Source of the DNA: a virus
DNA: 22,426 nt
Strand: one strand, 5' to 3'
Virus record (IMG/VR): IMGVR_UViG_3300025849_000248
Coordinates: 1 to 22,426 of that record
Below the pieces are notes generated by a model. That model worked only from the letters and a program-made list of their open reading frames with translations, was not told the origin of the DNA and ran no database searches. Every line of letters begins with the position of its first letter. The first letter of the stretch is position 1. Shown here piece by piece: positions 14,385 to 18,303 of this stretch. Made by a program: the position numbers and the translations under genes.

Positions 14385-16775
14385 ATGGCCGAAAGAATAG
14401 TAAGTCCTGGTGTTTTTACCAGAGAAAAAGATTTAACATTCTTACCACAAGGAATTAGTGATATCGGAGCAGCTTTAATAGGCCCAACAGAAACGGGTCC
14501 AGCATTTGTTCCAACAATAGTTCGTAATATGGGTGAGTTTGAAACAATCTTTGGTAAAGAAAATCAAGATTTTTATGTTCCTTTTACAGCGAAGCAATAT
14601 CTTCGTAGTGCAGGAACAGTAACAATAGTCCGTGTTTTAGGATTAGGTGGATACGCAAATGACACTATCACATTAGGTATTAGTGGTTCATTTGGACACA
14701 AAGTTGCAGCAGTTCTTAAACCTTCACGAGGCGCGACAGACCCAGACGCAACAGAATTAGCAGGGCCTACAAGTGCTTCAATCGTAATGGGAATACCTTC
14801 ATCAAGCGCATTCCAATTAGCACTTGACCCAGATAATAATGGTAGTAAAACAACATACTCATTATCATTTGATTCAAGTTCAGCTGATTACATTACAAAA
14901 GTATTTAGTGAAAACCCACAAGACGCAAACAACGAAGTTTATGTATATTCCAACTTCCAAAACACACAAAATGCAGCAGGCGCAAATGACGTAGTGACTG
15001 TAAATAGTGGTAGTGATGAATTGTTCTCATTTGATTACAATGTAGCAACTACACCTTTCATACAATCACAAAAAGTTAATTCCGCAAGAACAAGTTTATT
15101 TAAAGTAAATACTCGTTCACACGGAAGTAATATGAATTCAAAATATAGAGTCGGTATTTCTAATGTGAAACGAGCAGTTGATGTTGCTGGTTCAGATTAC
15201 GGAACATTTGACTTACAAGTAATAATCAATGACCCAACTAGCGTAGATGATGGAATAGTATTAGAAAACTTCCAAAATCTAACCTTTGATGAAGATAGTG
15301 TAAACTTTTTACCAAGAGCAATTGGTGATAAAAATACAACAATCGATTCACAAGGTAAGTTAACTCACAATGGAGATTATCCGAATCAATCACAATACAT
15401 TTTTATTAGTAATTATGATAATTTAACAGGTATTTCAGAAGAGTTAGTTCCTATGGGATTTGATAAAGTATTACAACCACACAACACTACACTTGGAATT
15501 ACTAGTGGTAGTACAATAGCAATGACTTTCCCATCTTGTTCATTTGTTGGAGCAACAAGTGGAGCAGGACAGAAAAATAATCGTGGAACATTTGACCAAA
15601 ATGTTTACTACGGATTTGATTTCAATAGTAAAGATAGTCAAAACTATTTGAAACCATTACCAACAAGTGCAGCAAATGGTAACAATGTAACTATGAGTTT
15701 GGAAGACGCATTTGGTAACGATGACGCTTCTATATTGGGAACAACATTCTCAAATGGAACAGAAAATCTATCATTATCAGATTCAGATTACAGACAATTA
15801 AAGTTCGCAGTTCCTTTTCAAGGCGGTTTTGATGGTTCAAATCCAGCAACTGAAAGAAAAACAGGAACAGACATTGTGGCAGGAAATACACAAGGGTTTG
15901 ATTTAAGTTCAGCAACAGCAACAGGTTCGTTAGCATATGTTAGAGGAATCAATGCAGTATCTAATCCAGACGAGTTTGATATTAACTTGTTAGCAATTCC
16001 AGGTGTTATACACCAATTGCACCCAAGTGTAACAAATCACGCAATTGATAAAGTAGAAGATAGAGCAGATTGTTTCTTTATCTTGGATGGTTCATCTTAT
16101 GGAAGAACAATTCAAGGAGCAAAAGACGATGTTAAAGCTCTTGATTCAAACTACGTTGGAACATATTATCCTTGGATAAAAATCTTGGATAGTGTTAAAG
16201 GTAAACCAACGTGGGTTCCACCTTCAGTAGTTCTACCGGGAGTATTTTCAAATTCTGATAGAATAGGACAAGAATGGTTCGCACCAGCAGGTCTAAATCG
16301 TGGTGGATTAACAGAAGTGTTAGAAGCACAAACAAGACTAACCAACTTAGAAAGAGATGATTTGTACGAAAATCGTATTAATCCTATCGCAACTTTCCCA
16401 GGTCAAGGTGTGGTCGTGTTTGGACAAAAGACACTACAAGCTAAACCAAGTGCTTTAGATAGAATCAACGTAAGAAGATTATTGATTAACTTGAGAAAGT
16501 TCATCGCATCATCTTCAAGATTCTTAGTATTTGAACAAAACACAAGTCAAACAAGAAGTCGTTTCTTGAATATTGTAAATCCATATATGGAACAAGTTCA
16601 AGCAAATGCCGGACTGACAGCGTTTAGGGTGGTAATGGACGAAAGTAATAACACTCCAGATGTTGTGGATAGAAACCAATTAGTTGGTCAGATATTCATA
16701 CAACCAACCAGAACAGCTGAATTCATAGTCTTAGATTTTGTAGTACAACCTTCAGGCGCATCATTCCCTGAATAA
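14385..16775 (+). CDS. Contractile tail sheath protein (T4 gp18-like)
   Basis: 796 residues (T4 gp18 has 659). The N-terminus has the sheath hallmark SPGVFTREKDLTFLPQG followed by DIGAALIGPTETGPAFVPT and a conserved region ending TVTIVRVLGLGGY. The C-terminal domain has the typical order LPGVFSNSDRIGQEWFAPAGLNRGGL, then NRINPIATFPGQGVVVFGQKTL, VRRLLINLRKFI, LVFEQNT and the closing FIVLDFVVQPSGASF. This domain forms the interlocking strands that let the sheath contract. The middle (~100-450) is variable and Ser/Asn-rich, probably surface-exposed insertions that explain the extra length. The gene has its own promoter motif, with AGGAG ten nt before the ATG, and a strong terminator after it. In T4 the tube gene follows directly; here two inverted genes intervene. 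Confidence 0.95.
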   Translation: MAERIVSPGVFTREKDLTFLPQGISDIGAALIGPTETGPAFVPTIVRNMGEFETIFGKENQDFYVPFTAKQYLRSAGTVTIVRVLGLGGYANDTITLGISGSFGHKVAAVLKPSRGATDPDATELAGPTSASIVMGIPSSSAFQLALDPDNNGSKTTYSLSFDSSSADYITKVFSENPQDANNEVYVYSNFQNTQNAAGANDVVTVNSGSDELFSFDYNVATTPFIQSQKVNSARTSLFKVNTRSHGSNMNSKYRVGISNVKRAVDVAGSDYGTFDLQVIINDPTSVDDGIVLENFQNLTFDEDSVNFLPRAIGDKNTTIDSQGKLTHNGDYPNQSQYIFISNYDNLTGISEELVPMGFDKVLQPHNTTLGITSGSTIAMTFPSCSFVGATSGAGQKNNRGTFDQNVYYGFDFNSKDSQNYLKPLPTSAANGNNVTMSLEDAFGNDDASILGTTFSNGTENLSLSDSDYRQLKFAVPFQGGFDGSNPATERKTGTDIVAGNTQGFDLSSATATGSLAYVRGINAVSNPDEFDINLLAIPGVIHQLHPSVTNHAIDKVEDRADCFFILDGSSYGRTIQGAKDDVKALDSNYVGTYYPWIKILDSVKGKPTWVPPSVVLPGVFSNSDRIGQEWFAPAGLNRGGLTEVLEAQTRLTNLERDDLYENRINPIATFPGQGVVVFGQKTLQAKPSALDRINVRRLLINLRKFIASSSRFLVFEQNTSQTRSRFLNIVNPYMEQVQANAGLTAFRVVMDESNNTPDVVDRNQLVGQIFIQPTRTAEFIVLDFVVQPSGASFPE

Positions 16776-16802: not shown

Positions 16803-16831
16803 AAAAACCCCCAAGAAATTGGGGGTTTTTT
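16803..16831. terminator. Bidirectional terminator between sheath and inverted genes
   Basis: CCCCCAA (16808-16814) pairs with TTGGGGG (16819-16825) around a GAAA tetraloop. It is flanked by AAAAA on the left and TTTTTT on the right, so it gives a U-tail in both directions. It can end the plus-strand sheath transcript and the minus-strand transcript from the inverted genes. Confidence 0.92.
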
Positions 16832-16861
16832 GTGTATGATAAAGAAGGAAAAAAATATTGA

Positions 16862-16937
16862 GAGTTCCAAATAAGTAGTCACTCACAACCCACTAAACCG
16901 ATTCCAAATTATCGTAGTCATCGGCAACCCACGAATC
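16862..16937 (-). ncRNA. Tandem stem-loop element, two covarying copies
   Basis: Two units, 37 nt apart, lie between the minus-strand gene's stop and the terminator. On the plus strand, unit A is stem GAGT 16862-16865 / ACTC 16881-16884 around TCCAAATAAGTAGTC, followed by ACAACCCAC. Unit B is stem CCGAT 16898-16902 / ATCGG 16920-16924 around TCCAAATTATCGTAGTC, followed by CAACCCAC. Loop and flank are conserved while the stem bases change in compensating fashion, the mark of a selected structure. Unit B can alternatively pair GATTC 16900-16904 with GAATC 16933-16937. The likely transcript is the 3' UTR of the minus-strand gene, where each unit begins GUGGGUUG; plus-strand use is not excluded. 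I could not match it to a known RNA family. Confidence 0.5.
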
Positions 16938-16940
16938 TAA

Positions 16941-17336
16941 TTACTTAGGATAGATAGTAAATGTATCAGCGTATTCAGCCAAACAATAACCTTGAGCTCT
17001 ATTATAGCCGTAATGTGTTTTACTACAACCCCTATACTTAATTCTAAAATTGCCAGTTATCATCATAGCCCTAACCACAGGATTCCACCTTAATCTCATC
17101 GGAATACCTTTCCACAAAGCTTGTTCGTTATCAGGAGCCAAGTAGTCATTTAAGACAAAAGCCGGTTGTTCTTGATTAGCTTCATACAATTCCATAGGAT
17201 TATGTGCATATTGATAGACATTCATAGTAAATGTCCTATTGTCATAACCAAAAGCTCTCGGAACTTGTGTATCAGCAAAATCTCTCATATAAATACCCTC
17301 GGTATCAGTTGTAATTATTTCATTATTTTCAATCAT
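16941..17336 (-). CDS. Hypothetical protein in inverted cassette (131 aa)
   Basis: 131 residues from ATG at 17336. This start is chosen because AAGGA lies about seven nt upstream, and because an earlier in-frame ATG at 17360 lies only nine nt from the -10 box and would be almost leaderless. The N-terminus is acidic (MIENNEIITTDTEGIYMRDF). The C-terminal half is aromatic and basic (GNFRIKYRGCSKTHYGYNRA), with cysteines at RGCSK and GYCLAEY; it ends DTFTIYPK. There is no signal peptide or membrane segment. I do not recognise the family. It is read against all neighbouring structural genes from its own sigma70-type promoter, as expected for an accessory or early-expressed cargo gene. The tandem stem-loop element and bidirectional terminator follow it. 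Confidence 0.75.
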   Translation of the reverse strand: MIENNEIITTDTEGIYMRDFADTQVPRAFGYDNRTFTMNVYQYAHNPMELYEANQEQPAFVLNDYLAPDNEQALWKGIPMRLRWNPVVRAMMITGNFRIKYRGCSKTHYGYNRAQGYCLAEYADTFTIYPK

Positions 17337-17368
17337 TTTGTTTCCTTTATCAATTATCATTACACTAT

Positions 17369-17397
17369 AATATAGTAAATCTTTTCATTAATGTCAA
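17369..17397 (-). promoter_or_regulatory. Sigma70-type promoter for the 131-aa gene
   Basis: On the minus strand TTGACA (17397-17392) and TATATT (17374-17369) are separated by exactly 17 nt: a perfect -35 and a 5/6 -10 box. The start codon with ribosome site lies 33 nt beyond the -10. The block 17341-17400 is a near repeat of 17641-17700. Confidence 0.85.
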
Positions 17398-17406
17398 GCT
17401 TTTTCT

Positions 17407-17631
17407 TTACATTTCTAAAGAATCTAACCACTCTTCTATTTCGTCGTGGGTCATTCTTCCGTCTTCTTCAAGAGCTTCTCTTTGTTCTTGTCTTGTTTGT
17501 GGTCTACCCATATTGTAGACTGGTCCAATGCCAGTTTCGGCTTGGAATTCTTGGTCGTGTTCAGGTAGATTACCTTGATTTCTTTGGTTCTCATAACTCA
17601 TACAACCCATAGCAAATGTTGCCATATCCAT
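17407..17631 (-). CDS. Hypothetical protein in inverted cassette (74 aa)
   Basis: 74 residues, acidic, Gln/Glu/Met-rich (MDMATFAMGCMSYENQ, RQEQREALEEDGRM), ending in a helical acidic segment EIEEWLDSLEM. No membrane segment, no recognised domain. AGGA lies ten nt before the ATG, a slightly long but usable spacing. It has its own sigma70-type promoter and is followed, only ten nt after its stop, by the -35 box of the next minus-strand promoter. No hairpin terminator is seen between the two genes, so read-through is likely. Both are probably small accessory genes expressed at a different time from the surrounding late genes. Function unknown. Confidence 0.65.
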   Translation of the reverse strand: MDMATFAMGCMSYENQRNQGNLPEHDQEFQAETGIGPVYNMGRPQTRQEQREALEEDGRMTHDEIEEWLDSLEM

Positions 17632-17814: not shown

Positions 17815-18303
17815 GTGGCTGAATTACTCGACCCAAATGATATATTTTTTACGCCGTTTGAACCAAAAGTGGCAAATCGTTTCGTTATGGAAATTGACGG
17901 AATACCAGCATATTTAGTTAAAACAATGGCAAGACCTTCAATAACTTTTGAAACTATCACACTTGACCATATTAATGTCAAGAGATATGTGAAAGGTAAA
18001 GCAGCTTGGCAACCAATTACAGTAACATTGTATGACCCAATCGTTCCATCAGGAGCACAATCGGTTATGGAGTGGGTAAGATTACATCACGAATCAGTAA
18101 CAGGTCGTGACGGATATTCTGATATGTATAAGAAAGATATTACTTTCAATGTATTAGGACCAGTTGGTGACAAAGTAGAAGAATGGACATTAAAGGGTGC
18201 ATTTATTCAAACAGCAGATTTTAGTGATATGGATTATTCTGCAAACACAGTAGCAGAAGTATCATTAACACTTCAATACGACTACGCAATACTACAATTC
18301 TAA
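17815..18303 (+). CDS. Tail tube protein (T4 gp19-like)
   Basis: 162 residues, essentially the length of T4 gp19 (163). It has the tube-protein pattern: ANRFVMEIDGIPAYLVKTMARPSI near the N-terminus, then the beta strands ITFETITLDHINVKRYVKGK and WQPITVTLYDPIVPSGAQ, a WVRLHH helix, ITFNVLGPVGDKVEEWTLKGAFI, and a closing EVSLTLQYDYAIL. It polymerises into the inner tube through which DNA passes. The start is GTG with AGGAG seven nt upstream; no ATG alternative lies near. It follows a promoter motif and begins the downstream tail/baseplate operon. Confidence 0.94.
   Translation: MAELLDPNDIFFTPFEPKVANRFVMEIDGIPAYLVKTMARPSITFETITLDHINVKRYVKGKAAWQPITVTLYDPIVPSGAQSVMEWVRLHHESVTGRDGYSDMYKKDITFNVLGPVGDKVEEWTLKGAFIQTADFSDMDYSANTVAEVSLTLQYDYAILQF

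Follow-up and report, generated by a model that had tools for sequence, protein, structure and literature searches.

What is encoded by two similar units that lie, 37 nt apart, between the stop codon of an inverted gene and a terminator in a phage genome, and what could such an element do? In the present study, this question was addressed in a 22.4-kb IMG/VR virus record (the window, 22,426 nt), which belongs to a marine T4-like phage according to its tail genes; a tblastn comparison put its sheath protein at 48% identity with the one from Microcystis phage Mel-JY01. A sequence-only reading of the locus had described two units with a shared loop and flank and with stems that differ and still pair. 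Direct reading of the letters found both units exactly so: on the plus strand, the first is GAGT-TCCAAATAAGTAGTC-ACTC-ACAACCCAC and the second is CCGAT-TCCAAATTATCGTAGTC-ATCGG-CAACCCAC. Their placement between the stop of the inverted gene (TAA 16943-16941) and a 12-bp inverted repeat was also confirmed, and they are the only pattern matches in the window. That reading had taken covariation within one locus as strong evidence of selection, which was too much: two copies are weak evidence alone, and the simple fold of the region was no better than that of shuffled sequences on either strand (z about -0.3 each). Since the local evidence in the window is weak, the proof of the element has to be comparative. 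Two simpler descriptions were rejected: a plain hairpin has no support from folding energy and does not account for the conservation of flank and loop, and a coding repeat is contradicted by the out-of-frame 37-nt spacing and by stops between the units.

Further copies were searched for with two patterns. The strict pattern, TTCCAAATN{1,8}GTAGTCN{2,12}CAACCCAC (that is, TTCCAAAT-(1-8)-GTAGTC-(2-12)-CAACCCAC), was found in 46 viral stretches, one of which (L075), being GC-rich, within an ORF and with a broken stem, is probably a chance match. The relaxed pattern GTGGGTT-(3-10)-GACTAC-(1-5)-ATTTGGA, written for the other strand, matched at least 119 IMG/VR viral stretches and, when reversed, none. 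Long contigs usually carry one locus each. No copy was found in INPHARED phages by blastn. The strict pattern yielded a single match (Ureibacillus) among 84,980 bacterial and archaeal genomes, which is of the order expected by chance, and a host element was therefore rejected; as the prokaryote scan used the strict pattern alone, a looser form of the module may occur in host tmRNA. In the Rfam scan of the units, no family matched at the gathering score, nor up to E 5 in the window, in line with the earlier statement that no recognised RNA family has this pattern, and the module appears to be undescribed in the open papers covered by our literature search. Thus the proposal of a selected RNA structure survived a search that could have returned no further copies or homologues with unpaired stems; it was borne out by copies in other viruses and by their covariation.

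Read on the minus strand, the motifs GUGG and CUAC are complementary and flank one strand of the variable stem. Each unit is therefore an H-type pseudoknot with two interlocked stems, S1 and S2, backed by covariation. The earlier stem-loop description was right that the variable stems pair and wrong in taking them for a hairpin with a conserved loop, for it is the flank and the loop that pair with each other through GUGG/CUAC. The consensus is XGUGG-L1-S2-(GA)-CUACY-NNAUUUG(GA)-S2', with the first-class form XGUGG-L1-S2-GA-CUACY-NNAUUUGGA-S2'; S1 is almost invariant and S2 covaries freely. The second class is without the GA and without the final GA of L3, and its stems differ wholly (S2 of CCUUUU/AAAAGG, GGGUUU/AAACCC, GGGAUUU/AAAUCCC and others). 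Because pseudoknots cannot be written in a covariance model, explicit descriptors with reversed-sequence controls were used; the descriptor gave 0 matches in 1.35 Mb of reversed sequence, and a looser one gave 4 control matches.

The scans imposed neither S2 pairing nor X-Y pairing. Against shuffles, which overstate significance because the units are related, all four inner S2 pairs were formed in 88% of 51 distinct units (26% on average and 41% at most after shuffling), and the outer pair of S1, X-Y, was formed in 78% (42% shuffled). An alignment of 24 distinct units had 93.6% of its pair cells paired, with changes on both sides in 41 cells (13 in shuffles) and a covariation of 0.425, compared with 0.140 in shuffles (0/500 as high) and at most 0.071 with the partner slid. 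Both the control with the slid partner and the variety of pair types depend less on the independence of the units: X-Y occurs as GC, UA, CG, AU and GU, and the fourth S2 pair as CG, AU, GC and UA. As the inner S1 pairs show almost no variation and the search pattern already contained them, the case for S1 rests on the outer pair, on one compensatory change (GGCGG/CUGCC in L203, second class) and on the strand signal of G-U pairs. Among the non-Watson-Crick pairs of S2, read on the minus strand, G-U outnumbers A-C by 49 to 11, and S1 contains a conserved G-U pair; these pairs place the RNA on the minus strand, which is also the strand of the upstream gene. The coordinates are collected in Table 1. 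S2 of unit A can be extended to UUGUGAGU/ACUCUCAA with one U-U mismatch, and its counterpart in L061, UUGAGAGU/ACUCUCAA, is perfect.

Table 1. Features of the locus in the window, with positions counted from the first letter of the record
Feature	Position	Strand	Basis or remark
Tail sheath gene	14385..16775	+	PHROG 23, E 8e-78; neighbour, outside the element
Bidirectional intrinsic-terminator-like hairpin	16803..16830	.	12-bp inverted repeat, 4-nt loop
Unit A, H-type pseudoknot	16858..16894	-	sequence, descriptor matches, L061 comparison
Unit A, S1	AGUGG 16894-16890 with CUACU 16878-16874	-	sequence
Unit A, S2	GAGU 16884-16881 with ACUC 16865-16862	-	sequence
Unit B, H-type pseudoknot	16897..16933	-	sequence, descriptor matches, covariation
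Unit B, S1	CGUGG 16933-16929 with CUACG 16917-16913	-	sequence
Unit B, S2	GCCGAU 16925-16920 with AUCGGU 16902-16897	-	sequence
Unit B, L3	AUAAUUUGGA	-	sequence
Minus-strand carrier gene, 139-aa ORF	16941..17360	-	ORF
Sigma-70-like promoter, TTGACA-17-TATATT	17369..17397	-	11/12 consensus positions; consensus match only
Tail tube gene	17815-18303		window annotation

On the minus strand, the promoter-like site and the carrier gene are followed, after a spacer of 7 nt, by pseudoknot B and then pseudoknot A; next come a stretch rich in U and the terminator-like hairpin, which is common to this unit and the tail sheath gene. Of the roles offered by the sequence-only reading, that of a 3' UTR element of the inverted gene agrees with this layout, as the units follow its stop and precede the terminator. 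The carrier gene probably starts at 17336, where AAAGGA precedes it, and would then encode 131 aa. It has 58 relatives among viral contigs; PHROG and Pfam gave no match for the product of the 139-aa ORF, and structure prediction of the 131-aa protein gave a poor model and no fold match. The minus unit looks self-contained and of early type, opposite a late structural operon, the earliness being suggested by the type of promoter. The other window neighbours of the units are the tail tube gene and genes without assigned function. A second small minus-strand ORF (74 aa, 17407-17631) has a TTGACA-17-TATATT site of its own at 17694-17666.

Outside the window, the module was met in three settings: in mRNA 3' UTRs of unrelated genes, in arrays near tRNAs or manA RNA, and as the last pseudoknot of one-piece phage tmRNAs. 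It follows the stop codon by 3-10 nt in at least three unrelated genes (139-aa, 82-aa and 131-aa), usually by 7-10 nt after the 82-aa and 131-aa genes, and after the 139-aa gene beside the tail sheath the spacers are 3, 7 or 34 nt. In all 44 cases of a 139-aa or 82-aa gene no more than 1.5 kb from an array, the gene stood upstream and on the same strand (44/44). Other arrays, of up to three knots (three in L122), have their own promoter-like sites and stand beside tRNAs or upstream of manA RNA. The cassette ends are alike at several unrelated sites (5' AATTCGTGG, 3' ACTCTCAAA).

The sheath-adjacent site also records changes in the presence of the cassette. When loci were retrieved by the 139-aa protein and not by the RNA, both occupied and empty 3' UTRs were found, with the same terminator, and the cassette was missing in 18 of 66 distinct 139-aa genes. 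L026 and L027 have proteins identical at 116/119 residues and differ by the whole cassette. On the tree of the 66 distinct proteins, a sample in which occupied loci are over-represented since some were fetched via the RNA, presence and absence need 9 changes, at least six of them forced by well-supported branches. Thus, the cassette seems to have been gained or lost at least six times at this site; instead of insertion and loss, recombination between gene and UTR could also account for the pattern.

In tmRNAs of related phages, the identical module GUGGGUU-S2-GACUACYNNAUUUGGA-S2' forms the last pseudoknot, in the place of PK4b, directly before the ACUAAG that is the 3' strand of helix 2, and another small pseudoknot precedes it. 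A pk4a-pk4b tandem is known in one-chain cyanobacterial tmRNA (PMC1168896). The second class also occupies the tmRNA place in L217, L222, L224 and L234 (separate scan), and the two sequence classes interchange in arrays and tmRNAs alike. Because both classes occur in both settings, which is the best sign of it, tmRNAs and arrays appear to draw on one pool of modules. The earlier view that no known RNA family has this pattern thus holds for Rfam, which gave no match, but not for these tmRNAs, in which the same module fills the PK4b place. The link is best described as the kinship of a part, and the window's element is judged not to be a tmRNA: ARAGORN found 0 genes in the window, the Rfam tmRNA models gave none at the gathering score or up to E 5, and a tRNA-like domain, a tag reading frame and helix 2 were all not found near the window's copy. 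The carriers are related, since the sheaths of tmRNA-bearing G005 and of array-bearing contigs are 57-81% identical to that of the window. Each long contig examined had either a tmRNA with the module or an array, never both (RF00023 search; contigs may be incomplete), which is a hint of mutual exclusion. HTVC008M, a Pelagibacter phage, has an alpha-type two-piece tmRNA at 145103-145414 (RF01849, 83.8 bits, above the cut-off); the module is absent from HTVC008M and Melnitz, which have the 82-aa gene and this type of tmRNA.

As for function, the reading that we favour, and hold tentatively, is that the tandem pseudoknots are a 3'-terminal stabiliser, built from modules that are interchangeable between tmRNA and the cassettes of T4-like phages. 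A rigid knot at the 3' end would slow 3'-to-5' exonucleases, and an early mRNA or stable RNA bearing it would thereby live longer; mature minus-strand 3' ends would then fall just past ACUCUCAAA. The proposal is modelled on tmRNA, where pseudoknots 2-4 have roles in folding and maturation and are interchangeable (PMC3968760). The tmRNA is the only setting with a known role, and the arrays are located at the ends of RNAs or in the company of stable RNAs. Since tmRNA and unrelated 3' UTRs share the invariant bases GUGG/CUAC, GA and AUUUGGA, these would serve tertiary contacts of the knot and not a gene-specific signal. Besides its place in tmRNA, the module has a second role in this group of T4-like phages, in cassettes of one to three knots that follow genes or stand beside stable RNAs. 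It may be regarded as a pseudoknot of the tmRNA type that has become a transferable 3' module of mRNAs. Several points stand against a stabiliser. The 3' end is already guarded by the intrinsic terminator hairpin, which may make a second block superfluous; the cassette is absent from many close relatives (the 18 genes above); several arrays lie upstream of manA RNA or tRNAs, away from mRNA 3' ends; and the marked conservation of bases in L1 and L3 would fit a site for a protein or ligand just as well.

A wider proposal, possible but doubtful, is that marine T4-like phages share a pool of swappable pseudoknots, recombining among tmRNA genes, mRNA 3' UTRs and tRNA-linked arrays, as a mobile and general stabiliser or handle. 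If true, this would be a previously undescribed mobile RNA domain serving phage RNAs in bacteria, where, as in phages, 3' UTR elements common to several genes are rare. tmRNA pseudoknots are usually regarded as private parts of tmRNA; with the module both inside tmRNA and, apart from it, after unrelated genes, their solo action becomes testable. The module also opens the question of how phages protect or tag early transcripts, and it can be used to search for the many marine-phage non-coding RNAs missing from Rfam.

The main rival to a stabiliser is that a protein of phage or host, or a small molecule, binds the element and thereby regulates the carrier RNA, or that the element is a decoy which titrates such a factor, with tandem copies for cooperative binding. 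We consider it unlikely, while the invariance of the loop bases across unrelated contexts and the tandem arrangement agree with it, and ribosomal protein S1 is known to contact the tmRNA pseudoknot ring (PMC3968760). A candidate partner would be the 82-aa protein, whose predicted structure is an SH3/Tudor/KOW-like barrel (pLDDT 81; best PDB match E 0.013) and whose gene is found, in the same orientation, upstream of 14 of the 64 distinct arrays. However, most arrays, the window's included, are without this gene nearby, the gene occurs in phages without the module (HTVC008M and Melnitz), and it is hard to see how an element placed after a stop could switch the upstream gene at the level of transcription or of translation initiation. 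The 82-aa family is common to T4-like phages of SAR11 and OM43 and often stands beside arrays; its sites include L061, L063, L065, L199, L208, L210 and others, HTVC008M 29739-29993 and Melnitz 39790-40062.

The gain and loss of the cassette, with at least six changes, and its similar ends at several unrelated sites would also suit a selfish or REP-like sequence that moves through the intergenic sites of phages and brings its carrier no benefit. We regard this as quite unlikely, given that compensatory changes preserve the stems, that the units are always in sense to a nearby 139-aa or 82-aa gene, that the module is used within a working RNA, the tmRNA, that a long contig usually has one locus and not many, and that terminal repeats and a mobilising gene were not seen. 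Very unlikely, in our view, is a relic of tmRNA, left in phages that lost the gene and retained its last pseudoknot. The shared module, the related carriers shown by tail sheath genes and the separation of tmRNA and array in the long contigs examined agree with such a descent; yet the other tmRNA parts were not found near the window's copy, the arrays have gone on to form tandem copies and a second class and so are under selection of their own, and a relic speaks to origin and not to function, in contigs that are incomplete. The spacing of 3-10 nt after the stop also resembles retroviral readthrough signals. A recoding signal that causes readthrough or delays termination is nevertheless extremely improbable: spacers of 7 and 3 nt put the downstream sequence in different frames, other relatives have 34 nt, the extensions are short and unconserved, and the tRNA-associated and tmRNA copies have no preceding stop codon. 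With neither frame nor spacer conserved, stop-codon readthrough was rejected.

Several named systems can be compared with the element. One-piece tmRNA (RF00023; cyanobacterial type, PMC1168896) has the same module before helix 2 with another pseudoknot ahead, whereas the window's units stand in tandem in an mRNA 3' UTR without tRNA-like domain, tag frame or helix 2. Among published architectures, STAXI comes closest, a candidate RNA with a small pseudoknot in two or three tandem repeats (Weinberg et al. 2010, PMC2864571); the window has two such knots and L122 up to three. It differs in sequence, the window repeats are without UUCG tetraloops, and ssb, topoisomerase, antirestriction and integrase neighbours were not met in the window. 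The Rfam scan, whose library presumably includes the published STAXI motif, gave no STAXI match in the window and L122, whether at the gathering score or with the limit widened to E 5. The upstream pseudoknots of tymo- and tobamovirus 3' UTRs (Rfam TYMV_upPK) are likewise H-type, tandem or single, and placed between stop and 3' end; the match was at chance level (13.8 bits, E 4.8) and the resemblance is of layout only, as the window belongs to a DNA phage and has a terminator and no tRNA-like 3' end. The manA RNA (RF01745) comes from the same kind of marine phages and in other contigs often lies about 430 nt downstream of arrays; it was not found in the window by Rfam and does not overlap the pseudoknots. 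A riboswitch or 5' leader would call for a 5' UTR location and an expression platform, while the units follow a stop and precede a terminator.

Other structured-looking elements were seen around the arrays. T-arm-like hairpins (GTAAGGTTCGAATCCTTACCATTAA), not called by ARAGORN, lie close to the array in L061, L212, L220, L230, L231 and L072 and possibly represent a tRNA-like domain; as a general feature beside arrays, such a domain was rejected, being limited to a few loci. Directly 3' of the array in L112, L135, L145, L177, L198, L201, L208, L210 and L214, there is a second conserved element, TTGGGGAATAGATAGTTAGACTATACCGCTGGACT..ACTCTGGATTCCCCAA, with a GGGGAAU/AUUCCCC stem; Rfam gave no match for it in L112, L135 and L177. 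In L008, L016, L024-L026 and most sheath-locus arrays, unit A is replaced after unit B by a two-hairpin module, formed by GGGTTATGTAGNGTTTCACGANNTTAGAAACAACC and a hairpin with compensating stems (TTGTGAGTT/AACTCTCAA, TTTAGAGTT/AACTCTGAG, GGTGATTT/AAATCACC). Upstream of the arrays in L122, L169, L187, L223 and L225, a conserved AAGTGTCTAAGGGCGTAAAGACAC is found, in several loci with an upstream GCCCGAC that could form a GCCC/GGGC pseudoknot. A further pseudoknot-like module upstream of arrays, GAGACGGGCTTCGAGTCTCTGAAATCGAAG in one form and AGGACGGGCTTCGAGTCCTTGAAATCGAAG in another, has a compensating stem.
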